A program made the translations under genes and the position numbers. The notes under the pieces are model-generated. The model had not been told where the DNA came from, did no database searches, and saw only the letters and a program-made list of their open reading frames with translations. Positions 3,601 to 58,620 of a stretch of DNA of 64,000 nt are shown here, piece by piece (within the stretch, counting starts at the first letter, position 1; each line of letters starts with the position of its first letter). The stretch is from Archivesica marissinica (taxonomy: Eukaryota > Mollusca > Bivalvia > Venerida > Vesicomyidae): the NCBI GenBank assembly GCA_014843695.1, contig CM026390.1:18782466-18846465 (forward strand). Direction: 5' to 3'.

Positions 3601-6600
3601 GTGGACACTGTTTGATACTTCATTTTAAATCCAGCCATTATTGTATCTGTGTACTGTAGGTGTTTGATCCAGCGATGAAGTGCAAGTTTGATCGTGTATC
3701 TGCTGTTGTGAAGGGCTATCTTACCAGACGTCTGCTAAGAACACCAAAGGTTCAGGAGATTATCAAAAAACTGTCTGTAAGTTTCCTGGAAAATCTTTCA
3801 AAAATATTCTTGTTAAATGATGTTTGTGTATTTTTTGTCAGGTTCATAAATGGGACTGTTTTTCTCAAGTGAGAGATATAGGGAGGGCCATCTTGTGTCG
3901 GTGCTTTGTCTAGTTAAAATGTCACACATATCTGTGATAATGTCAGATTTATTACACTTTTGTAAGGTTGCAGTTTGTTAACCTGGCCTTTTATGGAACA
4001 TTCTTCTTTTCCAGGATACTCGTAACTTTGCATTCAGTTTCCAAGCTGAGACCCCAATTAAGAAGGGATCATTTACACATGAGGATAGGACCCTGTTGGA
4101 ACGAATAATAGCTCAGGTACACCCGCTAGTCATTGTTCTCAAATTTAAACTAACTAGTCATTACTACCGACACTATATTTATATCTCAGAAAAAGAGAAT
4201 ATGTTATAATATGATCTATAGCAGTACATTGATGTTCTATAACAGTTTTATATATGATCTATAGCAGTACATTGATGTTCTATAACAGTTTTATATATGA
4301 TCTATAGCAGTATGTTGATGTTCTATAACAGTTTTATATATGATCTATAGCAGTACATTGATGTTCTATAACAGTTTTATATATGATCTATAGCAGTATG
4401 TTGATGTTCTATAACAGTTTTATATATGATCTATAGCAGTACATTGATGTTCTATAACAGTTTTATATATGATCTATAGCAGTATGTTGATGTTCTATAA
4501 CAGTTTTATATATGATCTATAGCAGTACATTGATGTTCTATAACAGTTTTATATATGATCTATAGCAGTATGTTGATGTTTCCTACATGATATATAGCAG
4601 TATGTTGATATTTCCTACATGATATATAGCAGTATGTTGATGTTTTATGCATGATATATAGCAGTATGTTGATGTTTCCTACATGATATATAGCAGTATG
4701 TTGATGTGTCCTACATGATATATATCAGTATGTTGATGTTTCCTACATGATATATAGCAGTATGTTGATGTTTTATACATGATATATAGCAGTATGTCGA
4801 TGTGTCCTACATGATATATAGCAGTATGTTGATATTTCCTACATGATATGTTTGCAGTATGTTGATATTTCCTACATATGTTTGCAGTATGTTGATATTT
4901 CCTACATGATATGTTTACAGTATGTTGATATTTCCTACATGATATATAGCAGTATGTTGATGTGTCCTACATGATATATAGCAGTATGTTGATGTTTCCT
5001 ACATGATATATAGCAGTATGTCGATGTTTCCTACATGATATATAGCAGTATGTTGATGTTTCCTACATGATATATAGCAGTATGTTGTTGTTCTATAACA
5101 GTTTTATACAAGTTATATAGCAGTATGTTGATGTTTCCTACATGATATATAACAGTATGTTGATATTTCCTACATGATTTATAGCAGTATGTTGATGTTT
5201 CCTACATGATATATAGCAGTATGTTGATGTTTCCTACATGATATATAGCAGTATGTTGATGTTTCCTACATGATATATAGCAGTATGTTGATATTTCCTA
5301 CATGATTTATAGCAGTATGTTGATGTTTCCTACATGATATATAGCAGTATGTTGATGTTTCCTACATGATATATAGCAGTATGTTGATGTTTTATGCATG
5401 ATATATAGCAGTATGTTGATGTTTCCTACATGATATATAGCAGTATGTTGATATTTCCTACATGATATATAGCAGTATGTTGATGTGTCCTACATGATAT
5501 ATAGCAGTATGTTGATATTTCCTACATGATATATAGCAGTATGTTGATATTTCCTACATGATATACAGCAGTATGATGATGTTTCCTACATGATATATAG
5601 CAGTATGTTGATATTTCCTACATGATATATAGCAGTATGTTGATGTTTCCTACATGATCTATAGCATTATGTTGATATTTCCTACATGATATACAGCAGT
5701 ATGTTGATGTTTCCTACATGATATATAGCAGTATGTTGTTGTTCTATAACAGTTTTATACAAGTTATATAGCAGTATGTTGATGTTTCCTACATGATATA
5801 TAACAGTATGTTGATATTTCCTACATGATTTATAGCAGTATGTTGATGTTTCCTACATGATATATAGCAGTATGTTGATGTTTCCTACATGATATATAGC
5901 AGTATGTTGATGTTTCCTACATGATATATAGCAGTATGTTGATATTTCCTACATGATTTATAGCAGTATGTTGATGTTTCCTACATGATATATAGCAGTA
6001 TGTTGATATTTCCTACATGATTTATAGCAGTATGTTGATGTTTCCTACATGATATATAGCAGTATGTTGATGTTTCCTACATGATATATAGCAGTATGTT
6101 GATGTTTTATGCATGATATATAGCAGTATGTTGATGTTTCCTACATGATATATAGCAGTATGTTGATATTTCCTACATGATATATAGCAGTATGTTGATG
6201 TGTCCTACATGATATATAGCAGTATGTTGATATTTCCTACATGATATATAGCAGTATGTTGATATTTCCTACATGATATACAGCAGTATGATGATGTTTC
6301 CTACATGATATATAGCAGTATGTTGATATTTCCTACATGATATACAGCAGTATGTTGATGTTTCCTACATGATATATAGCAGGATGGCGATATTTCCTAC
6401 ATGATATGTTTGCAGTATGTTGATATTTCCTACATGATATATAGCAGTATGTTGATGTTTCCTACATGATATATAGCAGTATGTTGATATTTCCTACATG
6501 ATATGTTTGCAGCTGCAGGCAGCTTTGTTGGATATTCATGAGATTTTCTTCGTCATCCCCCTGTCTGAGAGATTGGCAATCATCTCCTCTGCCAGGCAGC

Positions 6601-9600
6601 TTGAGGGAGAACGCAGCTTGAGGGAGTCCGTAAGTGAATCACTACTCTCTGATTACATTATTTCGGAGATATTATATTTCATTATAAAAGACATGTGCCA
6701 TCACTGTTAGACTTATGCTACTACATGTTTGCTAGCTATTGCGTCTTATGAAGACATCTTATTTAGCTTAGTAGAATCTGCTTCCAACTTTTTTAGTTTA
6801 TACAAATTTATTTTAGCTCGATTGCGAAACAAGTTCTTACAACTTATATTAATCACTCTCGAGACCTCATTCCTGATGGAATCCATCGTCACGAGCGAGA
6901 GAGAAGAGGCAACGTGGAATTGAAATTCCGTGCCTAAGGGCACAATCGTAACGGCTCCAGCTGGGCTCGAACTCTGGACATGAAGCAAACGGGCATCCAC
7001 TGCGCTATCACGACTTCCACAAATTCCAACTGGAGTCTGTGTTTGATACTACTTATGATGCCCTAAGCAAATAGCTAATATAGTCGTGATAGCTCAGTGG
7101 TAGCGCGTTCGCTTCACGTGCGAAAGGCCCGGAGTTCGAGCCCCGCTGGAGCCGTTACGATTGTGTCCTTAGGCAAGGCATTTAAATTCCACATGCCTCT
7201 TCTCTCTCCATCGTGGCGATGGATTCCATCAGGAATGAGGTCTCGAGAGTGATTAGTATAAGTTATAAGAACTTGTTTCGCAATCGAGCTAAAATAAATT
7301 TGTATAAACTAAATAGCTAATATTAACTGCAGTTAGTTTAAACATATTTTATTTTATCAATATTTAAATCATGTTGTAACATTAATATACAAGAACAAAT
7401 GGATTAAATCGGACGCTAGTAGCTTATTTAGATTTTCTCCATGACAAACATAATTTTCATAAACTATGGCAGAGTGTATATACATTTTATGAACGTGACA
7501 AGTTTTATTCAACTGTAATGATATAAATGTAAGTAAAAATAATATGGAGATGATGATGAAGTAATCAATCAGACTGGCTTACCAGTCGGATTACGTGCAG
7601 TCGATTTAGGCAATGGTGAGGGGATTACGTGCAGTCGATTTAGGAAATGGTGAGGCGAGAGAGGGGACGAGAGAGAGAGTGAGAGAGAGAGTGGGAGAAA
7701 GAGTGAGTGAGAGAGAATGAGGTGGAATCGTTTATACGAGGATGGAAGAGGAATATACACAAAGTAGCCGTTATCAAATCTCTTTGTTGCTGTAATAAAT
7801 AAACTGCAGTTGGTCAAACTAATACAGCTGCACTGGGTAGAGAGATTTTGGAGAAATTGTTTGTTGTTTTTTTAATATAGAGTCAACAAGCTTCTCCCTT
7901 CAAGATATTAAACATTGCCCTAATATATATCTTAAGTACTCTATGGTTAGCAGTTTATTTGGAGTGGACAACCGTAACATTAGACAGTTTCTATGGTTAG
8001 CAGTTTATTTGGAGTGGACAACTGTAACATTAGACAGTTTCTATGGTTAGCAGTTTATTTGGAGTGGACAACCATAACATTAGACAGTTTCTATGGTTAG
8101 CAGTTTATTTGGAGTGGACAACTGTAACATTAGACAGTTTCTATGGTTAGCAGTTTATTTGGAGTGGACAACCATAACATTAGACAGTTTCTATGGTTAG
8201 CAGTTTATTTGGAGTCGACCATGTTTTACCACATTTTACCATTATTACAGCAGAGACGTAGCCTGGATGGTGTGTCTTGCTCGCAGCCCAGGCTCAGTAC
8301 TGCCACCCTGAAAGCCATCGAAAGGAAGAAAAAGGCTCAGTATCCTTCACCTATATATTGGTTCCCCTGTTCATCATTACTTTTCATTGCTAATGGCATG
8401 GTTCCCCTGTTCATCATTACTTTTCATTGCTAATGGCATGGTTCCCCAGTTCATCATTACTTTTCATTGCTAATGGCATGGTTCCACAGTTCAACATTAC
8501 TTTTCATTGCTAATGGCATGGTTCCCCAGTTCAACATTACTTTTCATTGCTAATGGCATGGTTCCCCAGTTCAACATTACTTTTCATTGCTAATGGCATG
8601 GTTCCACAGTTCAACATTACTTTTCATTGCTAATGGCATGGTTCCACAGTTCAACATTACTTTTCATTGCTAATGGCATGGTTCCACAGTTCAACATTAC
8701 TTTTCATTGCTAATGGCATGGTTCCCCAGTTCATCATTACTTTTCATTGCTAATGGCATGTATATTATTTATGCACAAGATCAGATGCTGTTAGTGAAAT
8801 GGCGGCTTCCGATTGGTTAAAGGAGAGTAGGGAAACCCTTAAAGTGACACTACATCAGTGAAAACACAAATTTCTACAGAATGTATTTTCCTATTATATG
8901 GTATAATTTTTTACCCAAATATTTGCCTCAAATACTGAGTATTTCAACTAATAAACAAACGTCGTATACACGGTTTGTTGACAACAAAATAATGTAAACA
9001 TACATGCATAATACAACTAATGTATCCTGAATAACACGATTTATGGTACAGATTACCGCTATATCTCACATTTGTGCCTATTTATTTGTAGACTATTCTT
9101 TGTTAAATTATCGCTAAACGACATTATCTCACGTTTAGTTTTGACACGGATGACAAACAAACGTCAATTCCGGAGCATGGATGACCGTTATATGAAATCA
9201 TACTTTCAATCCACAAAAACACTGTTTATTGATTCAATGTTAGTGTTCGAATGTATTCAGATGAATTTGTGGTAGCAATGCATTTATACGTGAAAAAATG
9301 CATTTGATTTGCTTTTTGCGATGTAATGTCACTTTAAGAGTCGATGAAACATTAGTAGATATTGTCGACAAAGTGAAAATGATTTCTAAAAATTAAAATA
9401 CAATACATCAGCTGTATTCTGGAATATTTTCGAATAAAATGAAGGTGTTAGGGAGAACATTCAAAGAGTAGGGGGTGGGTGCATTTAGTAGGAAAATTAA
9501 AATAAACACAATTGCCCAACACTAAAAATTCAGTCTTTTGTACCAAACTATTTTTGGTGCTCATATAATGACACTATACTGGCTTCTCATGAGCCCACGA

Positions 9601-12600
9601 GAACCATACAATGGTCTGTACGTCGTGAAATGTTTACTCGACCGTAACCGCTGTCATAAAAGACCAGGCCAGTATAGATACCAGAAACGTTGGTTACCGA
9701 GTTACCGATACTGAAAGTAGTAAGTCATTAAATTTGAAGTAGTCTCACATACACCCTTCGTATATATACACTCAACAAAATTCCTAACCTGTCGCCTGTT
9801 GTTTTACAGTATTTGGAGTAAACTAATAACCATATAATATCAATATTCATATCATCTCATTGGTTATATTTTATTATAGATAGTTATGCGTGATTTTCTG
9901 TATAATCATTTCAGATACAATGCATTTAAATGACAATAACGATATTTGTATTGTATGATTATTAATTGGCTCCAAATATTATAAAATACCAGGTTACCGA
10001 TTAGGAATTTTGTGGAGTGTATATATGTCGATAGTGAACTTACAATAATCAAGTAATCCAGGGGTCGCAGGTTCGATCCCCCGTCTGACCCTAATAAAAT
10101 TAACAGTTTTTCAGATGGGACGTTAAACCGAGGTCTTGTGTCGGTGCTTTACACCGTGCACGTAAAATAACCAGAGGAGGCTTTGGAATGGGTCTCTGTC
10201 TGTATCATTGCACTATCCTCCAAAAATCTAAAATGACTAATCTCTTCAGGAGGCGTCGCTCATATGGGTAACCGGTAGCGACAATAAATAAACATAAAAC
10301 ACACACACAATAATCAATCACAGACCTGTAGTCCAGTGGTTAACACGCTGTTAAAAGCATCCATTTAATCTTAAATGATGATGTTAAAATCCACAACTAT
10401 CTTAACTAATGTATGGTGTGAAAGTTTTATTTCTTTTTGTGATTTAGCCAGGATGCCTACATGATTTCTGGTTTGCTATTTTTCCCTAACCATACATAGA
10501 TTAGCGGAGGAGGCTGTGTTTGGCAGTCTGGAGTTCAGACCGAAGACGGCCCCACCCGCTACTAGTAGTCCCCACCTCTCTACAGATATCAGGTACACAT
10601 TTCATGTCAATTTTTTTTTGCAGACCTCGGGTACAAACACACACTACGCCAGCTTCCACAGACATCATGTACATCCGTTGCTTCCAATTTCTAAACAAGA
10701 TGTACATCAGTTTCCACAGACATCATGTACAAACAATGTGTCCATTTCCGCAGACATCATGTACAAACAATGTGTCAGTTTCCACACACATCATGTACAA
10801 ACAATGTGTCTGTTTCCACATACATCATGTACAAACAATGTGTCTGTTTCCACAGACATCAGGTACAAACAATGTGTCAGTTTCCACACACATCATGTAC
10901 AAACAATGTGTCAGTTTCCACACAAATCATGTACATACAATGTGTCAGTTTCCACACAAATCATGTACATACAATGTGTCAGTTTCCACACACATCATGT
11001 ACAAACAATGTGTCAATTTCCACACACATCATGTACAAACAATGTGTCGGTTTCCACAGACATCAAGTATATACAATATGTCAGTTTCCACATACATAAT
11101 GTACAAACAATGTGTCCATTTCCGCAGACATCATGTACACACAATTTGTCAGTTTCCACATACATCATGTACAAACAATGTGTCAGTTTCCACACACATC
11201 ATGTACAACAATGTATGTGTCAGTTTCCACAGACATCAAGTATATACAATATGTCAGTTTCCACAGACATCATGTACAAACAATGTGTCAGTTTCCATAG
11301 ACATCATGTACAAACAATGTGTCAGTTTCCACATACATCATGTACAAACAATGTGTCAGTTTCCACATACATCATGTACAAACAATGTGTCTGTTTCCAC
11401 ATACATCATGTACAAACAATGTGTCTGTTTCCACAGACATCAGGTACAAACAATGTGTCAGTTTCCACAGACATTGTGTACAAACATATTTTATCAGTTT
11501 GTAGTGACATCAAGTACAAATTTTACATCAGTTGTCATGGACATCAAGTACAAACTTTACATCAGTTGTCATGGACATCAAGTACAAACTTTACATCAGT
11601 TGTCATGGACATCAAGTACAAACTTTACATCAGTTGTAATGGACATCAAGTACAAACTTTACATCAGTTGTCATGGACATCAAGTACAAACTTTACATCA
11701 GTTGTCATGGACATCAAGTACAAACTTTACATCAGTTGTCATGGACATCAAGTACAAACTTTACATCAGTTATCATGGATGGACATCAAGTACAAACTTT
11801 ACATCAGTTGTCATGGACATCAAGTACAAACTTTACATCAGTTGTCATGGACATCAAGTACAAACTTTACATCAGTTGTCATGGACATCAAGTACAAACT
11901 TTACATCAGTTATCATGGGACATCCAAACTTTACATCAGTGCATGGACATCAAAAAACCAGTCACCAAACAAACTTTACATTGACATCAAGTACAAACTT
12001 TACATCAGTTGTCATGGACATCAAGTACAAACTTTACATCAGTTATCATGGATGGACATCAAGTACAAACTTTACATCAGTTGTCATGGACATCAAGTAC
12101 AAACTTTACATCAGTTGTCATGGACATCAAGTACAAACTTTACATCAGTTGTCATGGACATCAAGTACAAACTTTACATCAGTTGTCATGGACATCAAGT
12201 ACAAACTTTACATCAGTTGTCATGGACATCAAGTACAAACTTTACATCAGTTGTCATGGACATCAAGTACAAACTTTACATCAGTTGTCATGGACATCAA
12301 GTACAAACTTTACATCAGTTGTCATGGACATCAAGTACAAACTTTACATCAGTTATCATGGATGGACATCAAGTACAAACTTTACATCAGTTGTCATGGA
12401 CATCAAGTACAAACTTTACATCAGTTGTCATGGACATCAAGTACAAACTTTACATCAGTTGTCATGGACATCAAGTACAAACTTTACATCAGTTGTCATG
12501 GACATCAAGTACAAACTTTACATCAGTTGTCATGGACATCAAGTACAAACTTTACATCAGTTGTCAATGGACATCAAGTACAAACTTTACATCAGTTGTC

Positions 12601-15600
12601 ATGGACATCAAGTACAAACTTTACATCAGTTGTCATGGACATCAAGTACAAACTTTACATCAGTTGTCAATGGACATCAAGTACAAACTTTACATCAGTT
12701 GTCAATGGACATCAAGTACAAACTTTACATCAGTTATCATGGATGGACATCAAGTACAAACTTTACATCAGTTGTCATGGACATCAAGTACAAACTTTAC
12801 ATCAGTTGTCAATGGACATCAAGTACAAACTTTACATCAGTTGTCATGGACATCAAGTACAAACTTTACATCAGTTGTCATGGACATCAAGTACAAACTT
12901 TACATCAGTTGTCATGGACATCAAGTACAAACTTTACATCAGTTGTCATGGATGGACATCAAGTACAAACTTTACATCAGTTGTCATGGACATCAAGTAC
13001 AAACTTTACATCAGTTGTAATGGACATCAAGTACAAACTTTACATTACATCAGTTGTCATGGACATCAAGTACAAACTTTACATCAGTTGTAATGGACAT
13101 CAAGTACAAACTTTACATCAGTTGTCATGGACATCAAGTTGAAACTATGCATCAGTTTCACAGACTATCAAGTATGAAGTTCGCGTCTGCTTACAACTAT
13201 TCCACTGACACTATTGAAGTTGACATTACTATTCTACCTGGCAAGATATTCTAGCTACAAGTTGACCATTCAGCATCAATGATTCAGTAATAATATACAT
13301 ACAGTGAAACCTGTGTTAGTGGTCACCTCCATTAAGCAGCCAACCTGTATTAAGCAGCCAGTTTCAAGATTCCCTATATGTTGTTTTACTATACATTTGA
13401 CCTCTATTGAGCAGCAACCTGTGCTAAGCAGCCACTTTCTCTGACTCCCTTGACTGGCTGCGTAAGACAGGTTTGACTGTACAGTGAAACCTGTCTTAAG
13501 CAGCCAGCCAAGGGAATCACAGAAAGTTGCTGCTTAGCACAGGTGCCTGCTTAATAGTGCTCAGATGTATAATAAAACAGCATATTGGGAATCTGAAAAC
13601 TGGCTGCTTAATACAGGTTGGCTGCTTAATAGAGGTTTAGTTTAATCATATTTTCATTCTATATATACAATGTACAGAACAAAACAAATGAACACACTTG
13701 TATAATTATGCATAGTATATACGATTTATGTCATTGTTGTGCACAAGAATTGTCAGCTTAATAGAGGTGACCACTAACACAGATTTGACTGTAGTTCTTT
13801 CATTGCATTGTGAAAAATCAGTGAATATAATTATATAATGGCCTTCGAGTATATAGAGGATATTTGTTTGTTTTGAGGGAATATGGAATATATCTCACTG
13901 AGAAGTGAGAAAATATGAAAATGTTCTCACTTCGAGATGATATATATTCCATATTCACTCAAAACAAACAAATTTTCTTTTTATTTTATGCTAATTGGTG
14001 AAAAACAAACACAAAATGAAGAAATTAAAATAGCTGGCCGCCGTGTTTTTGCGCGGATGAATACATTGACGACTATACGTCGTGAATCGATACACAAATC
14101 TGCCGCCATCTTGAATTTAAAGTTGAATCGAGGAAAAATACATGAAAAGATTTATTGGATTTATTGTTACAATTTGCAGTGACAAAATTCGAGACATTGT
14201 CAGTTGTATTTCGCTTTTGATTTGTTTCATAACAAAAACAATAATACAGGTAAATAGTGTCATTGAAGCCAGGTAAACGGTGAAAATTAAATGACATGTG
14301 TGACACGGTGAAGATTAGTGTACTGGGAATGGAGATAATAAAAAAAGTAGTCCGGCAAAATACAGTGAGTGATATGCAGTGAGTGATATGGATTATATCT
14401 CACTGATAGAACACTGTATTTCATCAATTAGCATAAAATAAATTCCAATAGCCGTTGAGAGAGTGTAGATATTGGGTGGGATAGTTAAGCTGTATGTGTG
14501 CTTCTTATTTTCTATCTCAGCGGTCCTTTACGCCGTCACTACCATTCTCTATTTGTCAGGGCTTTGCGACCTCTACAAGGTCAGATGTCACCAATCACAG
14601 GGGAGCATCAGCTCACAGTCAGGCAAGTACAACTACATATGCACCAACTTTCCAGTATGAGGACAGTGCAGGTTCGATCCCCCCCGTCTGACCCTAATAA
14701 AGTTAACAGTCTTTCAGATGGAACTTTAAACCGAGGTCTCGTGTCGGTGCTTTACACCGCGCACGTAAAAGAACCAGATGAGACTCTGGAATGGGTCTCT
14801 GTCTGTATCATTGCACTATCCGTCAACAATCTGAAATGACTAATCTCTTCAGGAGGCGTCGCTCATATGGTCAACCGGTAGCGACGATATATAAACGTAA
14901 AGCGCACGCACACATACACACAGGACAGTACTTTTGTAAATGATTTAATAGTAGATATAAATCACACCACTAAGCCGTTGATTATCGCCCGCCATTTCGT
15001 CGATAAATAATATTCTGGCATCGTCTGTCTGTGCATGCGTCTGTCTGGAGCCAATTCTCAGTAACCAATTAGTGGAATTTTATCAAATTTAAAATGATCA
15101 TGTATCACCATAGCGTCATCAACCAAGTAACACCAGAGTTATTGCCTGTTAATTGATTTTAAAAACCCCAAATGTGTCCGTCCAGCTCCAGTTAGGCAGA
15201 GGAGTAGTAGTAGTTTGTAACTATGCTATCAGTAGAAGTGATTCATACTTACTAAGTAGTAGTTTGCAACTATGCTATCAGTAGAAGTGATTCATACTTA
15301 CTAAGTAGCAGTTTGCAACTATGCTATCAGTAGAAGTGATTCATACTTACAAAGTAGCAGTTTGCAACTATGCTATCAGTGGCAGTGATTCATACTTACT
15401 AAGTAGTAGTTTGCAACTATGCTATCAGTAGAAGTGATTCATACTTACTAAGTAGCAGTTTGCAACTATGCTATCAGTAGAAGTGATTCATACTTACTAA
15501 GTAGCAGTTTGCAACTATGCTATCAGTAGAAGTGATTCATACTTACTAAGTAGTAGTTTGCAACTATGCTATCAGTAGAAGTGATTCATACTTACTAAGT

Positions 15601-18600: not shown

Positions 18601-20937
18601 CTCAGGGTATGGAATAGACTGTTCAGCTTTAGATCTGAGAAGTTATATAACCTCAGGGTATGGAATAGACTGTTCATGTTCCAGCTTTAGATCTGAGAAG
18701 TTATATAACCTCAGGGTATGGAATAGACTGTTCATGTTCCAGCTTTAGATCTGAGAAGTTATATAACCTCAGGGTATGGAATAGACTGTTCATGTTCCAG
18801 CTTTAGATCTGAGGAGTTATATAACCTCAGGGTATGGAATAGACTGTTCAGCTTTAGATCTGAGGAGTTATATAACCTCAGGGTATGGAATAGACTGATC
18901 ATGTTCAGCTTTAGATCTGAGGAGTTATATAACCTCAGGGTATGGAATAGACTGTTCAGCTTTAGATCTGAGGAGTTATATAACCTCAGGGTATGGAATA
19001 GACTGTTCATGTTCCAGCTTTAGATCTGAGAAGTTATATAACCTCAGGGTATGGAATAGACTGTTCAGCTTTAGATCTGAGAAGTTATATAACCTCAGGG
19101 TATGGAATAGACTGTTCATGTTCCAGCTTTAGATCTGAGAAGTTATATAACCTCAGGGTATGGAATAGACTGTTCATGTTCCAGCTTTAGATCTGAGGAG
19201 TTATATAACCTCAGGGTATGGAATAGACTGCTCAGCTTTATATCTGAGGAGTTATATAACCTCAGGGTATGGAATAGACTGATCATGTTCCAGCTTTAGA
19301 TCTGAGGAGTTATATAACCTCAGGGTATGGAATAGACTGCTCAGCTTTAGATCTGAGAAGTTATATAACCTCAGGGTATGGAATAGACTGTTCAGCTTTA
19401 GATCTGAGAAGTTATATAACCTCAGGGTATGGAATAGACTGTTCAGCTTTAGATCTGAGAAGTTATATAACCTTGGGGTATGGAATAGACTGATCATGTT
19501 CCAGCTTTACGATCTGAGGAGTTATATAACCTTGGGGTATGGAATAAACTGATCATGTTCCAGCTTTACGATCTGAGGAGTTATATAACATCAGGGTATG
19601 GAATAGACTGTTCAGCTTTAGATCTGAGGAGTTATATAACCTCAGGGTATGGAATAGACTGATCATGTTCCAGCTTTACGATCTAGTTTAGAGCATATAA
19701 CAGATGAACTCCTCATATTTTAACAGATGAACTCCTCATATTTTAACAGATGAACTGCTCTCACTAATTCTGTTGCTAAATGATGCTGTATAAATGATCT
19801 GACATATAAAACGTTCCAAATGAGATGAGTTATATAATAGGGAAGGCAATGAATGGTGATTTTGGCATTCGAATATTTGGATGATCTTCCGAAGAACTAT
19901 TCGCTAATTTCTTGAACGTTCAAAATTTACACTATTTCTACGTTATTTTATTTAAATTGTTAAACATTGAAATGAAATGTAATAGTATTACATGTATAGA
20001 CTGCATAAAATAAAATGCATGAAGTAAATAATAAAGTAAATCAAAATGAATAAATATAAAACTTTTAACAATCCCAAATTCGGAAAATATATTTTATTCA
20101 TTAATAACTCGAGTAAAAATATCATTTTAGATGACAAAAATGTTTTAATAAAATGAACATTATATATATTAAATGTACTCATGATTTCTTCAATGTACAA
20201 TGTTTCGAACTCGCACGGAACTGTGGTATTGTAACGCAGTGTGAAGTACTAGCACCTTAGACCGCTTGGCTATTACCACCTCGAATTGTGAAATCAATTT
20301 TATTCAATTAAACTGCGAAAATGCGTTGCAAATGAAGCGTGTAATTTTGATAATGTCTCAAGTAAATTTACGCATGCAATACTAAATGTACACGTCTTAA
20401 TAAACTTGTGTTCTGTTCACGCGGGGGACAACTTTCAACATTTCTGACCATTGTGGATGCAAACAACACATGCCATTAACAAATAAATACGGCTTGTATA
20501 GATTGTTCAATAACTCGTCTGAATCAATGTTGTTGGATTCGGTGGGTCTGAGAAACTAAGATCTCTCTGTATGGTAAAGTTTGACCTCAGATTTTGTACA
20601 TCAAAGAGAATTCATTAATCAATTAGTAGTCATTATTAATTGGAGCCATAACAATGAGAACTTTTCACACCTTAATTGATTGAAAATAAAGCAAGTTTTA
20701 TTTGAAACACATTGTAAAGGTGCCATTTTTTTATATATTCGAATACGACTACTATTCGAATACATTCAAATGAATTTCCAAATATTCAAACATTCGTTGC
20801 CATCCCTAGTTATATATATATATATGTTTACAGGTACAAAGAGTCATAATAAATCGTCCACCAACACAACTTTAAGCAAACAGAAAATAGCACCTGTGCC
20901 CACCAAAACAAAGAAGATGGACAAGGCATGGCGATGA
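517..20937 (+). CDS. CCP110: CP110 centriolar coiled-coil protein, C-terminal half, 10 exons
   Basis: Exons 517-642, 2419-3018, 3660-3776, 4015-4116, 6513-6629, 8251-8339, 10500-10592, 14521-14622, 17955-18034 and 20834-20937 sum to 1530 nt (509 codons plus stop) and join with every phase matching. CP110 caps the distal end of the mother centriole with CEP97, blocks ciliogenesis and binds calmodulin and centrin (known for the family). Seen here: an IQ-like segment (FDRVSAVVKGYLTRRLL), then FSFQAETPIKKG, then LQAALLDIHEIFFVIPLSER, then RALRPLQGQMSPI. As I remember vertebrate CP110, its C-terminal region has these blocks in this order. The N-terminal exons lie before the window. Introns are full of minisatellites; one looks U12-type and one is GC-AG. 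The name rests on remembered family sequence, not a search. Confidence 0.86.
705..1107. mobile_element. One-ended TTAA MITE fragment and adjacent unassigned DNA
   Basis: TTAA at 701-704 is followed by AGCGACACTATATCG, like the terminus of the TTAA/AGYGACAYTACAT MITE family (8843, 17080, 46692). No matching right end was seen before the hAT-like element at 1116. The ORF at 680-988 has no coding hallmark. Confidence 0.4.
1116..2227. mobile_element. hAT-type non-autonomous element, copy 1 (with SINE inside)
   Basis: Terminal inverted repeats TAGGGATGGCAACGAAT and ...ATTCAATGCCATCCCTA are flanked by a perfect 8-bp duplication, CATATCAC, at 1108-1115 and 2228-2235. Subterminal ATTCGAATATTCG palindromes are typical. 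There is no transposase. A SINE (1636-1930) lies within it. It sits in the first visible CP110 intron. Confidence 0.88.
1636..1930 (-). mobile_element. tRNA-Thr-derived SINE (family A)
   Basis: Read on the minus strand, a tRNA-like head with B box GGTTCGATCCCC and a Thr(GGT)-like anticodon loop is followed by a conserved body. The tail motif is GGAGGCGTCGCTCATATGG and it ends in an AC-rich repeat. It is nested inside the hAT-like element. Confidence 0.85.
2419..3018 (+). CDS. CCP110: CP110 exon b (200 codons, disordered region)
   Basis: This 600-nt exon starts after cttttcag, ends before gtttgt and is phase 0 at both ends. It encodes a low-complexity segment rich in Ser, Pro, Tyr, Met and Asn (for example MCIMPSMDPRAGVGLNMMNC) and then a more basic tail (SNQSTPVPSARVYKPIQHSP). 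No fold is apparent, fitting the central disordered part of CP110. The open frame runs past the donor to 3108, but that part reads into intron and a SINE fragment. Confidence 0.8.
3092..3172 (+). mobile_element. SINE family A, 3' fragment
   Basis: Only the 3' body is present (AATCTCTTCAGGAGGCGTCG to the ATAAATAAATG tail), about 75 nt downstream of the CP110 donor at 3018. Confidence 0.8.
3173..3659. other. Intronic sequence without recognised features
   Basis: AT-rich single-copy-looking DNA between the SINE fragment and the next CP110 exon. I see no repeat or ORF of note. Confidence 0.3.
3660..3776 (+). CDS. CCP110: CP110 exon c (IQ-like calmodulin-binding segment)
   Basis: Bounded by actgtag and gtaagt, 117 nt, phase 0. 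It encodes VFDPAMKCKFDRVSAVVKGY followed by LTRRLLRTPKVQEIIKKLS. The VSAVVKGYLTRR core fits an IQ-type pattern (hydrophobic, x, xxx, Lys-Gly, xxx, Arg). This is one of the segments that identify the gene, because vertebrate CP110 has a closely similar KFDR...VKGYLTRRL stretch. It probably binds calmodulin (inference). Confidence 0.9.
4015..4116 (+). CDS. CCP110: CP110 exon d
   Basis: Acceptor ttttccag, donor gtacac, 102 nt, phase 0. It encodes DTRNFAFSFQAETPIKKG, then SFTHEDRTLLERIIAQ. The vertebrate protein has a similar Phe-rich, then Glu-Ala-Pro-Leu-Lys-Arg-Gly, then Leu-Gln-Glu-Arg order at the same place between the IQ-like segment and the next helix. The downstream intron (4117-6512) is almost wholly minisatellite. 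Confidence 0.88.
4211..6512. repeat. 43-bp then 32-bp minisatellite reaching the splice acceptor of CP110 exon e
   Basis: About eight 43-bp units (ATGATCTATAGCAGTA...GTTCTATAACAG) pass into about sixty 32-bp units (CCTACATGATATATAGCAG + TATGTTGATGTTT). A marker unit with TATGTTGTTGTTCTATAAC recurs at 5081 and 5732, so a 651-bp block was duplicated. Variants with GATATGTTTGCAG recur near 4850-4920 and 6400. The last one supplies the real acceptor at 6511-6512. It fills nearly the whole intron. Confidence 0.95.
6513..6629 (+). CDS. CCP110: CP110 exon e (conserved helix)
   Basis: The acceptor is gtttgcag and lies inside the last unit of a 32-bp tandem array; the donor is gtaagt. The 117 nt are phase 0. 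It encodes LQAALLDIHEIFFVIPLSER and then LAIISSARQLEGERSLRES, the most recognisable CP110 block (vertebrate proteins have a similar L.AAL..IH.IFFV....ER). The same gtttgcag motif recurs in several upstream repeat units, so alternative acceptors are available. Confidence 0.92.
6793..7020 (-). mobile_element. tRNA-Val-derived SINE (family B), minus copy
   Basis: On the minus strand: tRNA-like head with TTCGAGCCC B box, then GGCTCCAGCC..., a body, and a tail ending AAATTTGTATAAACTA. It is oriented opposite to the copy at 7082, forming an inverted pair about 60 nt apart. Confidence 0.85.
7082..7316 (+). mobile_element. tRNA-Val-derived SINE (family B), plus copy
   Basis: The head GTCGTGATAGCTCAGTGGTA has a clear A box. 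The anticodon stem-loop TTCGC/TTCACGT/GCGAA places CAC, as in tRNA-Val, and the B box is GAGTTCGAGCC. The body ends at AAATAAATTTGTATAAAC. There is no folded tRNA gene: the acceptor stem is not paired to a proper 3' end. Confidence 0.87.
7334..7403. repeat. 70-bp dispersed repeat, copy 1
   Basis: AGTTTAAACATATTTTATTT through AAGAACAAATGGAT is found again, almost identical, inserted in a SINE at 27561-27629. Confidence 0.75.
7404..7938. repeat. Low-complexity intronic DNA with GA-rich tract
   Basis: A 35-bp near-duplication (ATTACGTGCAGTCGATTTAG twice, 7590-7650) and a GAGAGAG tract at about 7651-7722. The minus-strand ORF here is a by-product of the tract. Confidence 0.6.
7939..8218. repeat. 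50-bp minisatellite, about 5.5 copies
   Basis: The unit starts CTATGGTTAGCAGTTTATTT and contains AACATTAGACAGTTT. It ends about 30 nt before the acceptor of CP110 exon f. Confidence 0.93.
8251..8339 (+). CDS. CCP110: CP110 exon f, ending at a U12-type donor
   Basis: After attattacag, 89 nt encode QRRSLDGVSCSQPRLSTATL, then KAIERKKKA plus two bases of the next codon. The basic KAIERKKKA tail parallels the SLDRKKY stretch of vertebrate CP110. The exon ends in phase 2 at the donor GTATCCTT, the minor-spliceosome 5' splice-site consensus. A shift of 3 nt at the acceptor (cagcag) is possible. Confidence 0.83.
8361..8760. repeat. 40-bp minisatellite, 10 copies
   Basis: The unit is GTTCCCCAGTTCATCATTAC then TTTTCATTGCTAATGGCATG; ten copies in exact 40-bp register. 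It starts 20 nt after the start of the U12-type donor. Confidence 0.95.
8843..9333. mobile_element. TTAA-flanked MITE (AGTGACAYTACAT termini)
   Basis: Termini AGTGACACTACAT and ATGTAATGTCACT are flanked by TTAA at 8839-8842 and 9334-9337. Related copies are at 17080-17522 and 46692-47091. TTAA duplication suggests a piggyBac- or Kolobok-type transposase (inference). There is no transposase. Confidence 0.82.
9338..9768. other. Unassigned intronic DNA
   Basis: AT-rich and single-copy-looking. No feature was recognised. Confidence 0.3.
9769..10019. mobile_element. Mariner-like MITE with TA duplication
   Basis: Termini CACTCAACAAAATTCCTAAC and GATTAGGAATTTTGTGGAGTG are inverted repeats of about 20 nt, flanked by TA. 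About 251 bp, no ORF. Confidence 0.78.
10050..10312 (+). mobile_element. SINE family A
   Basis: Starts in the anticodon arm (GTAATCCAGGGGTCGC), B box GGTTCGATCCCC, full body, AC-rich tail. The A-box half is missing. Confidence 0.85.
10500..10592 (+). CDS. CCP110: CP110 exon g
   Basis: The first base completes a Gln codon left open by the exon at 8251. It then encodes LAEEAVFGSLEFRPKTAPPA and TSSPHLSTDI, with two bases carried over (phase 2). The donor is atatcag|gtacac. The same frame stays open far downstream, through a 34-bp tandem array to 13020, so intron retention would not terminate at once. The 34-bp unit resembles this exon-intron junction. Confidence 0.8.
10613..13160. repeat. 34-bp minisatellite (two variants) after CP110 exon g
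   Basis: Variant A (to about 11495): CACAGACATCATGTACAAAC then AATGTGTCAGTTTC. Variant B (to about 13160): TCATGGACATCAAGTACAAA then CTTTACATCAGTTG. Both are 34 bp and align, so B is a diverged daughter array. The unit has no stop in any forward frame, so long ORFs of 834 and 857 codons arise. The left edge decays into units that resemble the exon's donor junction. Confidence 0.95.
13302..13480 (-). mobile_element. CAGTCAAACCTG MITE (family P), minus copy
   Basis: Terminal inverted repeats CAGTGAAACCTGTGTTAGTG and CAGGTTTGACTG with TA at the ends. It abuts a second copy in the opposite orientation. Confidence 0.85.
13482..13793 (+). mobile_element. CAGTCAAACCTG MITE, plus copy with insertion
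   Basis: Starts CAGTGAAACCTGTCTTAAGC and ends CACAGATTTGACTG before TA. About 115 nt between roughly 13641 and 13755 interrupt it; GCTTAATAGAGGT stands on both sides of the interruption. Confidence 0.8.
13862..13973. repeat. Long imperfect hairpin
   Basis: ATTTGTTTGTTTTGAGGGAA at the left pairs with the reverse complement near 13950-13973. Inner arms GAGAAGTGAGAA and TTCTCACTTC surround an A-rich loop. It may be the end of a larger inverted element reaching 14446. Confidence 0.7.
13976..14446. mobile_element. Possible inverted-repeat element
   Basis: TTATTTTATGCTAATTGGTG at about 13980 is inverted at about 14415-14440 (ATCAATTAGCATAAAATAAA). The interior has no coding frame. The class is unknown. 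Confidence 0.5.
14521..14622 (+). CDS. CCP110: CP110 exon h, ending at a GC donor
   Basis: After ttctatctcag the phase-2 frame reads GPLRRHYHSLFVRALRPLQG and then QMSPITGEHQLTV. The RALRPLQGQMSPI stretch parallels a R.L.P.QGQ..P motif remembered from vertebrate CP110. That supports this frame over the longer ORF in the frame starting at 14521. The exon must end at 14622 before GCAAGT, a strong GC-AG donor, because only this keeps the next exon open. A GT at 14579 would cut the conserved QGQ and lead to a stop. Confidence 0.78.
14665..14920 (+). mobile_element. SINE family A, 5'-truncated
   Basis: Begins at the B box (GCAGGTTCGATCC) and runs to the ATATATAAACG tail, about 42 nt after the GC donor of CP110 exon h. 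ORFs at 14494-14839 are partly exon and partly this SINE. Confidence 0.8.
14921..15204. other. Unassigned intronic DNA
   Basis: No ORF or repeat recognised. Confidence 0.3.
15205..17072. repeat. 49-bp minisatellite, about 38 copies
   Basis: The unit is AGTAGCAGTTTGCAACTATG then CTATCAGTAGCAGTGATTCA and TACTTACTA. Sub-blocks with CTATCTGTAG or missing GA recur in order near 16330-17040, showing block duplication. Confidence 0.95.
17080..17522. mobile_element. TTAA-flanked MITE (AGCAGCATTACAT termini)
   Basis: Termini AGCAGCATTACATTG and GATGTAATGCTGCT with TTAA at 17076-17079 and 17523-17526. It lies next to the 49-bp array and contains a GATA microsatellite near 17280. Confidence 0.82.
17733..17911 (+). 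mobile_element. CAGTCAAACCTG MITE, full copy
   Basis: CAGTCAAACCTGTCTTAAAC to ACACAGGTTTGACT, about 180 bp, immediately upstream of CP110 exon i. Confidence 0.85.
17955..18034 (+). CDS. CCP110: CP110 exon i (basic tail)
   Basis: Acceptor tttctgcag, donor gttaga, 80 nt. With one base completing the previous codon it reads EMKERPRTAPEKRKSTETNN and KMKRTT, ending in phase 1. It is strongly basic and Ser/Thr-rich, like the C-terminal tail of CP110. The other forward frame meets a stop within the exon. Confidence 0.72.
18203..18452 (-). mobile_element. tRNA-Val-derived SINE (family B)
   Basis: Complete on the minus strand: head with GTCGTGATAGCGCAATGGTA, body, and tail to GTATAAACAAAG. One internal insertion (GATAAAG) near 18322. 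Confidence 0.83.
18466..18612. mobile_element. Inverted-repeat element with CCAAT/TATA-like ends, copy 1
   Basis: Contains CAGTATCAACCAATCACAG and ends GAGAAGTTATATAACCTCAG, like the copies at 23561-23704 and 63185-63300. Its right end grades into the tandem array that follows. Confidence 0.65.
18575..19690. repeat. 51/58-bp minisatellite, about 21 copies
   Basis: The unit is GATCTGAGAAGTTATATAAC then CTCAGGGTATGGAATAGACT and GTTCAGCTTTA, with or without an extra ATGTTCC. The first half of the unit equals the right terminus of the preceding inverted-repeat element. Minus-strand ORFs here are artefacts. Confidence 0.93.
19838..20808. mobile_element. hAT-type non-autonomous element, copy 2
   Basis: Ends TAGGGAAGGCAATGAATG and CATTCGTTGCCATCCCTA. 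GTTATATA stands on both sides (19829-19836 and 20809-20816), with one extra A at the left. The interior is AT-rich without transposase. Confidence 0.78.
20834..20937 (+). CDS. CCP110: CP110 last coding exon
   Basis: Acceptor tgtttacag at 20825-20833. It reads GTKSHNKSSTNTTLSKQKIA, then PVPTKTKKMDKAWR, then TGA at 20935-20937. It is Lys/Ser/Thr-rich and phase-matched to the previous exon. A GATGATTGT-type tandem array begins right at the stop codon and forms the start of the presumed 3' UTR. Confidence 0.72.
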
Positions 20938-21245
20938 TGATGAGGATTGTGATGATGATCAAAACTGTGATGCTGATTGTGATGATGATGAAGATGATTG
21001 TGATGATGATGATTGTGATGATGATTGTGATGATGATGATGATTGTGATGATTGTGATGATGATGATTGTGATGATGATCAAACTGTGGTGATGATGATG
21101 ACAATTGTGATGATGATTGTGATGATGATCATGAGGATTGTGATGATGATCAAACTGTGGTGATGATGATGACAATTGTGATGATGATTGTGATGATGAT
21201 GATTGTGATGATGATTGTGATGATGATCAAAACTGTGATGATGAC
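20938..21245. repeat. GATGATTGT-type tandem array at the CP110 stop codon
   Basis: Units of GATGATGATTGTGATGATG, with a longer unit containing CAAACTGTGGTG repeated near 21080 and 21160. The His- and Ile-rich minus-strand ORFs are by-products. It starts at the stop codon and probably belongs to the 3' UTR. Confidence 0.9.
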
Positions 21246-28225: not shown

Positions 28226-28826
28226 TTTCCGCAGCCAGTCACTGTATTGTCGCAGCCGATCACTGGGTTGTTGCAGCCAGTCACTGGGTTGTCGCAGCTG
28301 ATCACTGGGTTGTTGCAGCCAGTCACTGGGTTGTCGCAGCCGATCACTGGGTTGTCGCTATGGCGCAGCCAGTCACTGGGTTGTCGCAGCCGGTCACTGG
28401 GTTGTCGCTATGGCGCAGCCAGTCACTGGGTTGTCGCAGCCGATCATTGGGTTGTCGCAGCCGATCACTGGGTTGTCGCTATGGCGCAGCCAGTCACTGG
28501 GTTGTCGCAGCCGGTCACTGGGTTGTAGCTATGGCGCAGCCAGTCACTGGGTTGTCGCTATGGCGCAGCCAGTCACTGGGTTGTCGCAGCCGGTCATTGG
28601 GTTGTCGCAGCATGTCACTGGGTTGTTGCAGCCGGTCACTGGGTTGTCGCTATGGTGCAGCCAGTCACTGGGTTGTCACAGCCAGTCACTGGGTTGTCGT
28701 AGACCGTCACTGGGTTGTCGCAGTCGATCACTGGGTTGTTGCAGCTGGTCACTGGGTTGTCGCAGCTGGTCACTGGGTTGTTGCAGCCGGTCACGGGTGT
28801 TGCTATGGCGCAGCCAGTCACTGGGT
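28226..28826. repeat. 21/29-bp minisatellite
   Basis: The unit is CAGCCAGTCACTGGGTTGTC plus G; every second or third unit has an extra GCTATGGC. It begins directly after CCTTTCTTTCCGCAG, which looks like a splice acceptor, but no exon is supported. The long ORFs are repeat artefacts. Confidence 0.93.
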
Positions 28827-33350: not shown

Positions 33351-33819
33351 TCTATAAAACATGTTCCTGTTAATGTAAGGTTTGTGGGTCCTATATCTAT
33401 AAAACATGTTCCAGTTAATGTAAGGTTTGTGGGTCCTATATCTATAAAACATGTTCCAGTTAATGTAAGGTTTGTGGGTCCTATATCTATAAAACATGTT
33501 CCAGTTAATGTAAGGTTTGTGGGTCCTATATCTATAAAACATGTTCCAGTTAATGTAAGGTTTGTGGGTCCTATATCTATAAAACATGTTCCAGTTAATG
33601 TAAGGTTTGTGGGTCCTATATCTATAAAACATGTTCCAGTTAATGTAAGGTTTGTGGGTCCTATATCTATAAAACATGTTCCAGTTAATGTAAGGTTTGT
33701 GGGTCCTATATCTATAAAACATGTTCCAGTTAATGTAAGGTTTGTGGGTCCTATATCTATAAAACATGTTCCAGTTAATGTAAGGTTTGTGGGTCCTATA
33801 TCTATAAAACATGTTCCAG
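33348..33819. repeat. 45-bp minisatellite, about 10.5 near-perfect copies, ending at a splice acceptor
   Basis: The unit is TCTATAAAACATGTTCCAGT then TAATGTAAGGTTTGTGGGTC and CTATA. 45 is a multiple of 3, so 15-residue repeats are open on both strands. Each unit holds a TTCCAG acceptor-like site and a GTAAGG donor-like site 9 nt later. The array stops at the acceptor of the candidate exon. Confidence 0.95.
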
Positions 33820-33952
33820 TTAGAATGTCCAAGTGGTTACGTTGTCGAGTTCAGTTATACAGAGAACCAAGACAGTCATGCTGCCAACACAGAACTAACA
33901 ACAATATGGAACCACCTGCTGGAGAAGTTAGTGTACCTTATAGCAGTGCAGG
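33820..33952 (+). CDS. Candidate exon of an unidentified gene
   Basis: 133 nt lie between acceptor atgttccag and donor gtaagg. The frame from the first base reads LECPSGYVVEFSYTENQDSH, then AANTELTTIWNHLLEKLV, then YLIAVQ, with an amphipathic helix-like end. A second frame is also open (ending MEPPAGEVSVPYSSA). I do not recognise the protein. It could be part of a gene between CP110 and the synthase or a chance ORF. The 45-bp array upstream ends exactly at the acceptor, and its unit resembles the junction. Confidence 0.4.
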
Positions 33953-35096: not shown

Positions 35097-35908
35097 TGGA
35101 ACAGCAACTCTAGTGTTATCTGGTCAGTGATTGGTGGAATACTTTACTGTTATCTGGTCAGTGATTGGTGGAATACTTTACTGTTATCTGGACAGTGATT
35201 GGTGGAATACTTTACAGGGAGTAACATCACTCTTGTAACAGCAACTCTAGTGTTATCTGGTCAGTGATTGGTGGAATACTTTACTGTTATCTGGTCAGTG
35301 ATTGGTGGAATACTTTACTGTTATCTGGACAGTGATTGGTGGAATACTTTACAGGGAGTAACATCACTCTTGTAACAGCAACTCTAGTGTTATCTGGTCA
35401 GTGATTGGTGGAATACTTTACTGTTATCTGGTCAGTGATTGGTGGAATACTTTACTGTTATCTGGACAGTGATTGGTGGAATACTTTACAGGGAGTAACA
35501 TCACTCTTGTAACAGCAACTCTAGTGTTATCTGGTCAGTGATTGGTGGAATACTTTACAAGTGGCAGTAACATCACTCTTGTAACAGCAACTCTAGTGTT
35601 ATCTGGTCAGTGATTCGTGGAATACTTTACGTTATCTGGACAGTGATTGGTGGAATATTTACATGTGGGAGTAATATCACTCTTGTAACAGCAACTTTAC
35701 TGTTATCTGGACAGTGATTGGTGGAATACTTTACATGTGGGAGTAATATCACTCTTGTAACAGCAACTCTAGTGTTATCTGGACAGTGATTCGTGGAATA
35801 CTTTACTGTTATCTGGACAGTGGTTGGTGGAATACTTTACTGTTATCTGGACAGTGGTTGGTGGAATACTTTACTGTTATCTGGACAGTGGTTGGTGGAA
35901 TACTTTAC
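35097..35908. repeat. 34-bp minisatellite with longer block structure
   Basis: The unit is TTATCTGGTCAGTGATTGGT then GGAATACTTTACTG. Every 2-3 units a spacer AGGGAGTAACATCACTCTTG + TAACAGCAACTCTAGTG recurs. Confidence 0.92.
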
Positions 35909-40667: not shown

Positions 40668-40671
40668 TTAT

Positions 40672-46680: not shown

Positions 46681-46691
46681 TTTAAACTTAA

Positions 46692-47091: not shown

Positions 47092-47424
47092 TTAAACAAA
47101 CGGGACAGACATGTGTATTATCTCGGTAAGTTTTGTCAGCTCTCCCTCTAACTAAGAACTTGATCATGCATCTACCAAGTCTCGCCATTATAGCATCGTT
47201 TTTCCCTGTTTCCTTAGATCTGAAACTTTCTAGGAATATTTCTTGGACTATTCATGCAGCTGGTAGAAAAATCAGTGTTTAATCAAGAAAATGCAGTAAT
47301 ATGAGTAGATAACGACATTCACACATCGATTTTATGAAGACACAGTAAATACAGTAGCTAGTTTAGAATGACAGAAAAATTGTTTTCAACATTGTCTTTA
47401 CAATTATTGTGCTGGCAATTGACC
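47092..47424. other. Unassigned DNA before the satellite
   Basis: No feature recognised. Confidence 0.3.
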
Positions 47425-56900: not shown

Positions 56901-57300
56901 TACGGTTTTTATCTCAGCTAGGACACGGTATAAATCGGACTAACAAACGATTTACTAACCAACTTATGTCTAAATCTTCTTAGAATTAGTAATTGCACCG
57001 GGTAATTTCTTCACCCGGTCTACCTCCGACCCCCGTTGGTACACAATAGTGTGCGAGCGGGGGTGGGAGATATGAAAACCGAACACACTCTGAGATTATT
57101 GCAACCCACATAGCCCTCTAAACACCATAGCATTGTAATTGTATTAGTTTATTAACTATCTATTTGTCTTCCGCTAATGTCGAAACCCTCGCGGTTCTTT
57201 GAATCATCTTAGCTTATTTAGTCGCCCAAATGCATTTATGCGGTGGCGACTTTAAATAAACCTATATAGTTAGTCTTTAAAAAAAAGAAAAACAGAAATA
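53926..57300. other. Non-coding 3.4-kb stretch with a 575-bp duplication
   Basis: No ORF over 60 codons. About 54778-55352 and 55353-55935 are diverged direct copies (both contain TATGGCACAAGGAAATATCC and CATAGTTGTTATATCAACAC). A SINE D tail complement (CTAATGTCGAAACCCTCGCG) lies near 57173. It may be one large non-autonomous element; no termini recognised. Confidence 0.5.
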
Positions 57301-58157
57301 GAATTAAAGAATATAATAATAACAGCTAAATATTAGAAATTAATAACAAACCTGTGTGTAAATTTTAGGACTATACTTTGTGTTAAAGAACTTTGTGGAA
57401 ATAAATTAACTTTGTGATACACTATATATATTTAAACTGGAATAAAGTGTTAAGAATCATAACTGAACTTTGTGAAATTGGACAAAACCCATTGTTAGAT
57501 AAAATTGTTATAACCTTCTGAAAATAAATTGTTATAAACTTCAACAAGTCTTTGTGACTAAATAACTATAAAATAAATAAGTGCTCCAAAGCTTGAGCAG
57601 CATCGTCGTTACCAAGTAAAGTAAACGTTCGCTGTACGCGAAATAATAAAAAACACCACTGTATAATAGTAGCATTGGGTTTATGTAATGTTGATCCTAA
57701 ACAGAACCAGTGTACATCAACGCAACATTTGCAGTAATACATTATTTGTATCATTTTTTTCCTTCAAATTAACGTGTATGAATTCATTTTGAAAGGAAGT
57801 ATGTTGTATATACAATTGTTCCAGTTTAAATACAAATTTTTGCAATATTAGTATTGAATTTCTTACATGAATCATTAAATCCCAAGACAACAAATATCAC
57901 TTGGAGAAATGCAATCACCCGCGCTATGCACTTAATTTATAATAGCATCTTTTGTCAGTATTTGCAGAACAATAAACATGATTTACAATGCTGTCATTAC
58001 TTCCGGTAAACAAGCTTGCATGATTCTACGACTGGCTGTCAATTTTATATACACGGCATACATGTAGGCACTGAAATAATTGGTAAACCCATCAGATAAA
58101 TTTAGTCACGACCACAGAATGTTACCTTGACCCCAAGTAATTTTCCATAAATAGCTG
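57301..58157. other. Unassigned AT-rich DNA upstream of the synthase exon
   Basis: No upstream synthase exon recognised. The minus-strand ORF at 57566-57754 has no coding support. Confidence 0.35.
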
Positions 58158-58516
58158 TTAAGCAGTGTGTATGATTTCAGGACTTTGGAGATACTATCTC
58201 CTTACAGAAAGTAGTTCATTGCCTAAAGTAGTTCCTTTGTTCAGCAGTGTGTATGATTTCAGGACTTTGGAGATACTATCCCCTTACAGAAAGTAGTTCA
58301 TTGCCTAAAGTAGTTCCTCTGTTAAGCAGTGTGTATGATTTCCGGACTTTGGAGATACTATCCCTTTACAGAAAGTAGTTCATGGCCTAAAGTAGTTCCT
58401 CTGTTAATTAAGCAGTGTGTATGATTTCCGGACTTTGGAGATACTATCCCTTTACAGAAAGTAGTTCATGGCCTAAAGTAGTTCCTCTGTTAATTAAGCA
58501 GTGTGTATGATTTCAG
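58158..58516. repeat. Four tandem copies of the synthase acceptor and exon start
   Basis: Units of about 83-86 bp hold AAGCAGTGTGTATGATTTCAG, GACTTTGGAGATACTATCCC (the first 20 coding nt) and TTACAGAAAGTAGTTCATTG. Copies 1 and 2 keep TTTCAG; copies 3 and 4 have TTTCCG. Splicing into any copy would read to an in-frame TAG about 17 codons later. Confidence 0.95.
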
Positions 58517-58620
58517 GACTTTGGAGATACTATCCCCGGTCATGGAGGAATAATGGACAGATTTGACTGCCAGTTTCTCATGGCAACTTTCGTACATGTG
58601 TACCACTCCAGCTTTATCAA
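58517..58620 (+). CDS. CDS2: CDP-DAG synthase signature exon
   Basis: Acceptor atgatttcag, donor gtaagt, 104 nt, phase 0 to phase 2. It reads [18 protein letters not shown], then [16 protein letters not shown]. The S..DFG...PGHGG..DR.D pattern is the diagnostic cytidylyltransferase signature. Four upstream tandem copies repeat the acceptor and the first 20 nt of this exon. Two keep the AG; two have it changed to CG. Confidence 0.9.

Follow-up and report, generated by a model that had tools for sequence, protein, structure and literature searches.

Minisatellites that copy splice junctions in the clam Archivesica marissinica: probable by-products of tandem duplication blind to exon boundaries

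The founding paper on the "mirages" of amphioxus is said to be that of Canestro et al. (2002), and intron gain by tandem duplication is reportedly treated by Gao and Lynch (2009), Hellsten (2011) and Zhuo (2007). In the sections of the amphioxus accounts that we cite, mirages are tandem duplications spanning intron–exon boundaries (PMC3902484, PMC3087553), and not all of their repeats retain the AG or GT signals (PMC3902484). Human genes in segmental duplications carry internal tandem repeats at exon–intron boundaries that, according to the part of the report used here, yield novel introns (PMC2812944), and passages of two papers cite the origin of introns from exon segments that contain AGGT and are duplicated in tandem in the genome (PMC3443670, PMC3087553). 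Here we describe junction-copying minisatellites in the vesicomyid clam Archivesica marissinica. The starting point was a stretch of 64,000 nucleotides (hereafter the window; G000:C5:18782466-18846465, contig CM026390.1 of assembly GCA_014843695.1; within a genome of 1.54 Gb), in which the original prediction had placed six arrays at exon boundaries or similar sites and had proposed that array birth is associated with such boundaries. Arrays that copy a splice junction do exist and are found again in further genes of this genome: the unit consists of exon and adjacent intron across the junction, as in a mirage, at window 58158-58537, at one donor on C18, two on C8 and one on C1, and at a kinesin exon (L074). 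We consider it probable (roughly 65%) that these arrays are by-products, in the manner of amphioxus mirages, of tandem duplication that is blind to exon boundaries, combined with a splicing filter that acts unequally on donors and acceptors.

Among the six cases claimed for the window, one is an unambiguous junction array. It lies across the acceptor of an exon of the gene at the right of the window.

58158..58537, + strand, array of 82-86 bp units across the acceptor of the CTP_transf_1 exon (Tandem Repeats Finder, TRF, and shuffle tests)
58517..58620, + strand, exon with a CTP_transf_1 family match (gene model and Pfam scan)

This array (84-bp array) contains five copies of the acceptor, with exon starts at 58181, 58263, 58345, 58431 and 58517, the last being the real one. 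Its units read gatttcag/GACTTTGGAGATACTATCCCC (the slash marks the junction), and the 21 bases after the slash are exactly those with which exon 58517-58620 begins. The exon-side score of 42 was reached by 0/2000 shuffles and by 0/2000 random segments, and the predicted likeness between unit and splice site is exact here.

Outside the window, we fetched eight chaperonin locus spans (177.5 kb) and 20 kinesin exons with 260-bp flanks. The sample used for counting comprised 65 exons, taken from nine chaperonin loci and the 20 kinesin exons; removal of weak splice scores (5/65 donors and 2/65 acceptors) left 60 usable donors and 63 usable acceptors. Of 57 PF00118 matches, 44 were used (43 in the fetched spans and L015), plus one exon located by tblastn. 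The 13 that were omitted were duplicates (four on C11 and two on C8), parts of long single-exon frames (three) or outside the fetched spans (four). The kinesin exons were the 20 with the lowest E-values and no in-frame stop among 125 matches (122 of 256 candidates scored), two presumed duplicates being skipped. The window, as the original finding, and the kinesin array L074, which was noticed via repeated profile matches, stand outside the counts. The chaperonin spans contain 131 arrays covering 74,064 of 177,504 bp (42%). Near-identical duplicated chaperonin exon matches occur on the same strand in G000:C8:10263000-10302999 and on opposite strands in G000:C11:21754500-21814000; they may represent recent duplication or retained haplotypes (gene or assembly duplicates). 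One array differs by 18 bp between the duplicated C8 copies (618 versus 600 bp).

Four arrays in other genes span a donor. On C18, the unit is 76 bp (59 exon and 17 intron bases by TRF edges) and is present in 13.8 copies (97% match). The two arrays on C8 have units of 76 bp, with 38 exon bases (10 copies, 97%), and of 42 bp, with 35 exon bases (26 copies, 93%). The array on C1 lies in CCT5 and has a unit of 43 bp with 25 exon bases (6.3 copies, 94%); the CCT5 exons were placed using the Mercenaria protein. A chaperonin translation from this genome shares 85% identity with the Mercenaria mercenaria T-complex protein 1 epsilon subunit, 84% with that of Ruditapes, 83% with that of Mactra and 78-79% with those of Mya and Dreissena. 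All these units span the unspliced junction, that is, exon end plus intron start, and the last 30 exon bases recur without mismatch (score 60) in the C18 array and in both C8 arrays. Since the exon-derived portions belong to the coding regions of conserved genes, copying most likely proceeded from exon to intron. The junction copies have largely kept their GT: with the real site included, 13/13, 10/10 and 25/25 copies retain it in three arrays, and a fourth has GT in 27/36 copies and GC in the other nine. Protein continuity across the junctions is consistent with undisturbed splicing.

Of the decoy donors, 52/80 equal or exceed the real site in score. Such arrays might be kept because they aid splicing, as redundant signals, for regulated alternative use or as dual-specific AG/GT sites. 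The C8 32203 junction also scores 6.3 as an acceptor (the four others score 0.7, 0.4, −4.2 and, in one case, have no AG), and the human UBC gene uses tandem dual-specific sites in the portion of the report drawn on here (PMC10809524). Unit length does not favor this explanation: the six arrays that reach a donor from the exon side have units of 31, 43, 76, 42, 76 and 26 bp, and one of the six is a multiple of three, though chance alone gives about one-third.

Both 5' and 3' boundaries were found duplicated, the two acceptor cases having been noticed before counting. The second acceptor-spanning array, besides the 84-bp array of the window, is kinesin L074 (G000:C6:90884340-90885230). Its 113-bp unit (27 intron and 86 exon bases) occurs in six copies (96% match), five of them in tandem upstream of the real kinesin motor exon. 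In the window, the copies at 58345 and 58431, which adjoin the real exon, have CCG for CAG, leaving 2/4 decoys without AG; in L074, copies 3-5 have CAT for CAG (3/5 decoys without AG). In both arrays, CAG persists in the real and the far copies, and the decoys without AG are those adjoining the real exon. No change other than this loss is shared by copies 3-5 of L074 against its other copies. By a rough hand estimate for the two arrays, the AG would be hit by one change with a chance of about 2/113 and by one of three shared substitutions with a chance of about 6/86. Decoys adjoining the exon are destroyed here rather than retained, which argues against junction arrays as an aid to splicing, and we regard that explanation as quite unlikely.

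To place the junction arrays against the general density of arrays, two backgrounds were used: the hazard of array starts in sequence that is free of arrays and lies over 300 bp away from these junctions (0.00136 per bp; 105 in 77,351 bp), and matched random intron points with an array-free "exon side". Arrays start in the last 57 exon bases at 5/60 donors; the intronic rate predicts 4.64 (P = 0.49) and the matched points 3.17 (P = 0.21). There is no clear excess of array starts at donors, and an excess of about twofold is compatible with the numbers. At acceptors, no array (0/63) ended within the initial 57 bases of the exon, against 4.87 expected (P = 0.008) or, from matched points, 3.25 (P = 0.035). 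Donors and acceptors thus compared differ in this small sample (5/60 versus 0/63; Fisher P = 0.025).

These frequencies bear on the possibility that transcription or splicing directs array birth to splice junctions, via R-loops or mRNA- or lariat-templated repair. The recurrence of junction copies speaks for it, as do a borderline excess at donors between −60 and +10 (8/60 versus 4.1 at matched points, P = 0.05; versus 5.7 from the intronic rate, P = 0.22) and a cluster of array ends at 27-45 bp upstream of acceptors, roughly where branch sites usually lie. It is opposed by the finding that array starts at exon ends are not clearly commoner than intronic ones and by the density of arrays everywhere we sampled. 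Moreover, the template would have been DNA or pre-mRNA and not mRNA, because the units contain the unspliced junction. At the donors of the 65-exon sample, array starts were about as frequent as at random intron points, an outcome close to the one that the original prediction had set for its own refutation; at acceptors, arrays avoided the exon instead of being associated with it. The excess at splice sites that would have pointed to R-loops or mRNA-templated birth was not borne out. We consider directed birth unlikely; the recurrence of junction arrays needs no junction-seeking mechanism.

The cluster of array ends upstream of acceptors is marked: 8/63 acceptors have an array end 27-45 bp upstream, against 1.54 expected from the intronic rate (P = 0.0002) or 1.03 from matched points. 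It remains without the kinesins (5/44, P = 0.0007) and without the C8 locus (6/55, P = 0.0003), and persists on leaving out any chaperonin locus. In a position scan of an earlier set that included the window (10/73), P was 0.001 against acceptor-like intron points, and 0/2000 sets of random points reached the observed value. The idea that arrays lying before acceptors are decayed acceptor-spanning arrays was tried and set aside with weak support: residual similarity was found at 2/16 listed acceptors (P = 0.015 and 0.01), and the others gave P values of at least 0.11.

Blind duplication with a splicing filter would explain how often arrays start at donors, why donor decoys stay intact, why the sampled acceptors lack arrays that run into the exon and why nearby AGs are destroyed. 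Tandem duplication in gene bodies would proceed at a very high rate and without regard to exon boundaries. When a duplication falls over a 5' splice site, the first copy would keep the normal donor and the extra copies of exon end and donor would land in the intron, where they would be tolerated; the array could then grow with its decoy donors intact. When a duplication falls over a 3' splice site, the upstream copies would be complete, competing acceptors. Such arrays would mostly be lost to selection, or would survive once the decoy AGs closest to the exon had been inactivated; further arrays would stop short of the region where the branch site and pyrimidine tract usually lie. In arrays of both types, the outermost, true site would be the one used in transcripts. 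Selection that keeps arrays away from the presumed branch-site and pyrimidine-tract region can explain the accumulation of array ends before acceptors only in part; the ends might gather at the edge of that region because array edges creep until they are stopped, or because the constrained last unit of a former acceptor array diverges from the rest. A stricter form of this reading is a one-way filter, by which donors may be present in tens of tandem copies, their decoys at full strength, and acceptors may be copied only with their nearest AGs knocked out, arrays otherwise lying outside the branch-site module. We put this form forward tentatively, at a little short of even odds.

The other arrays of the window and the exons next to them are as follows.

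4204..6504, + strand, array of 43-bp and then 32-bp units that fills most of an intron (TRF and similarity tests)
6513..6629, + strand, exon e (LQAALLDIHEIFF...), 3' of the 32-bp array (gene model and protein alignment)
7940..8219, + strand, array of 50-bp units that ends 31 bp upstream of acceptor 8250/8251 (TRF)
8251..8339, + strand, exon f (gene model); the next intron begins GTATCCTT
8359..8760, + strand, array of 40-bp units that starts 19 bp past the exon f donor (TRF)
10500..10592, + strand, exon g, with donor ACAGATATCAG/GTACA resembling the 34-bp units (gene model and protein alignment)
10641..13174, + strand, array of donor-like 34-bp units (detected by TRF from 10707; visual reading adds degenerate units back to about 10641)
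20834..20937, + strand, final exon of the left gene, including the TGA stop codon (gene model)
20933..21227, + strand, GAT trinucleotide repeat (TRF), which starts at stop codon 20935-20937
28231..28798, + strand, array of 21/42-bp units after acceptor-like sequence (TRF and similarity test)
33351..33822, + strand, array of 45-bp units ending in an acceptor-like site (TRF and similarity test)
33820..33952, + strand, putative exon (gene model only)
35107..35908, + strand, array of 34-bp units that ends about 23 bp before the acceptor-like site of a putative exon (TRF)

Four arrays, with units of 32, 34, 45 and about 84 bp, had been predicted to abut splice sites and to resemble them. The 32-bp array does reach acceptor 6512/6513, and the exon e acceptor lies within its final unit; a 19-base word holding this acceptor has two further occurrences within the array. 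The exon-side similarity is not significant (P = 0.22), and the exon appears not to continue the unit. In this array, 73/81 upstream CAGs score below the real acceptor, which loosely fits the pattern of AG loss. The 34-bp array shows the converse: its unit matches the exon g junction TCTACAGATATCAG/GTACA at 17/19 positions (P = 0.006; exon side alone, P = 0.07), and it does not abut donor 10592/10593, beginning 50-115 bp downstream. None of its 65 decoy donors scores as high as the real exon g donor, a further point against arrays kept as an aid to splicing. The 45-bp array ends at an acceptor-like site as predicted and shows no exon-side similarity (P = 0.91); protein searches, one of them limited to proteins of about 29-91 residues, found no homologue of the putative exon 33820-33952. 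The fifth predicted array does start at the stop codon and is a GAT repeat with no junction copy (P = 0.53). For the sixth, said to begin after an acceptor-like sequence at 28226, such a start was recovered (30 upstream bases versus array, P = 0.05), and the open reading frame listing and visual reading gave no evidence of a gene.

Plain chance adjacency, in which dense arrays fall near splice sites and share AG or GT words with them, has to be weighed for these cases. Arrays of period ≥10 make up about 38% of the window (37 arrays), and three of the six claimed cases show no exon-side similarity. In the left gene, 3/8 merged arrays are no more than 35 bp away from a splice site, where 0.44 would be expected (P = 0.007); this P value depends on the cut-off, being 0.12, 0.04, 0.02, 0.09 and 0.03 at 10, 25, 50, 100 and 120 bp. 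Chance cannot yield units that share 21 exon bases exactly, as in the window, or 30, as at three donors, nor the near-identical 86-base exon piece of kinesin L074, nor the accumulation of array ends at 27-45 bp. It is refuted for the exact cases and stands for the weaker cases of the window; as an account of the whole we judge it very unlikely. We also entertained, and dropped, the idea that all arrays of the window descend from acceptor-like sites. The CAG/CAGT excess in the window units is strong (+ strand CAG 41 versus 24.2 in shuffles, z = 5.1; 27/33 consensus units), and was not repeated in other gene spans: it is absent in 108 deduplicated units of seven chaperonin spans (CAG 58 versus 51.7; CTG 74 versus 62.5).

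Several points weigh against blind duplication with a splicing filter. The samples are small, and splice sites were set by profile match and a generic splice score, not by transcripts, the protein of a relative serving as a check only for CCT5 and the left gene of the window. The borderline donor excess given above would suggest some junction bias. The array at C1 donor 8378 (25 copies) starts 2 bases inside the exon and has no second copy of the junction word; it abuts the donor without copying exon sequence. One of the five donor starts, on C14, extends only 4 bases inside the exon, a distance that may reflect no more than TRF edges. The acceptor deficit fades when the interval is extended to −60 to +27 (3/63 versus 4.98, P = 0.26). 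Both acceptor-spanning arrays retain intact far decoys, the case for AG loss has only these two arrays behind it, and the remaining 8/81 upstream CAGs of the 32-bp array score as high as the real acceptor. Finally, the accumulation of array ends at 27-45 bp was noticed post hoc, and a splicing filter alone does not explain it.

The left gene of the window has exons from 532 to the stop at 20937 and is matched by gastropod proteins without assigned function (49-59% identity); the protein alignment is continuous across the exon e acceptor and the exon g donor. The name CP110 follows the original prediction; a Pfam scan gave no match. The intron between exons f and g (8340-10499) begins GTATCCTT and ends ...TTTTCCCTAACCATACATAG, with the 40-bp array near its donor, and its ends presumably mark a minor (U12-type) intron. 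The donor of exon h at 14622 is GC (TCAG/gcaagt). The right gene extends to a further exon.

60978..61107, + strand, last coding exon of the CTP_transf_1 gene, with stop codon (gene model)

Exons 58517-58620 and 60978-61107 were joined for the Pfam scan, and the CTP_transf_1 match (E = 1.1e-11) covers only 58517-58620. We assume that the gene encodes CDP-diacylglycerol synthase. A scan of the window for a few motifs of the family, aimed at its other exons, revealed none that fits. Elsewhere, 42144-43159 contains an interrupted transposase-like frame, presumably Tc1/mariner-like, and 62156-62527 (− strand) a reverse-transcriptase-like sequence that we take to be a fragment of a long interspersed nuclear element (LINE).

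If the pattern holds genome-wide, junction arrays would supply a very large number of natural tests of how one splice site is chosen when its copies are identical, and would continually furnish material from which introns could grow or arise. Should the one-way filter be true, the genome would amount to a large natural experiment on how the spliceosome chooses one of several identical sites. Among known systems, the Caenorhabditis elegans minisatellite CeRep25B is enriched in introns beside alternative exons; as far as the cited text goes, it is one dispersed family with regulatory motifs, whereas the clam arrays are copies of the local junction (PMC4039745). The dual-specific sites of UBC resemble the clam arrays in being tandem AG/GT copies that potentially act as donor or acceptor; unlike the UBC sites described in the portion cited, the clam copies are intronic, and of five clam junctions a single one had a good acceptor score (PMC10809524). 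The intron-gain model likewise involves tandem-duplicated exon sequence with splice signals, the difference being that the clam copies sit in existing introns.

The human boundary repeats, too, are variable tandem repeats at exon–intron boundaries, and they change splicing. In the part of that report used here, they emerged from comparison of recent paralogues, are exonic and are kept or spliced out, with no donor/acceptor asymmetry apparent (PMC2812944). In the open-licence literature, judged mostly by title, we found no boundary-spanning minisatellites in molluscs. The closest match is provided by the amphioxus mirages, which in the cited sections also have units across a 5' or 3' exon–intron boundary, of tens to about 160 bp, with many copies keeping their splice signals and one outer copy keeping the exon coding intact (PMC3902484). 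The clam arrays differ in their bivalve host and in their occurrence at 5/60 sampled donors and in two separately found acceptor cases. The donor/acceptor asymmetry, the array ends at 27-45 bp and the AG loss in near decoys are clam features without a counterpart in those sections of the amphioxus description (PMC3902484). Because boundary repeats are already known in humans (PMC2812944) as well as in amphioxus, the novelty is narrowed, within the sources as cited, to the molluscan case and the asymmetry between donors and acceptors.

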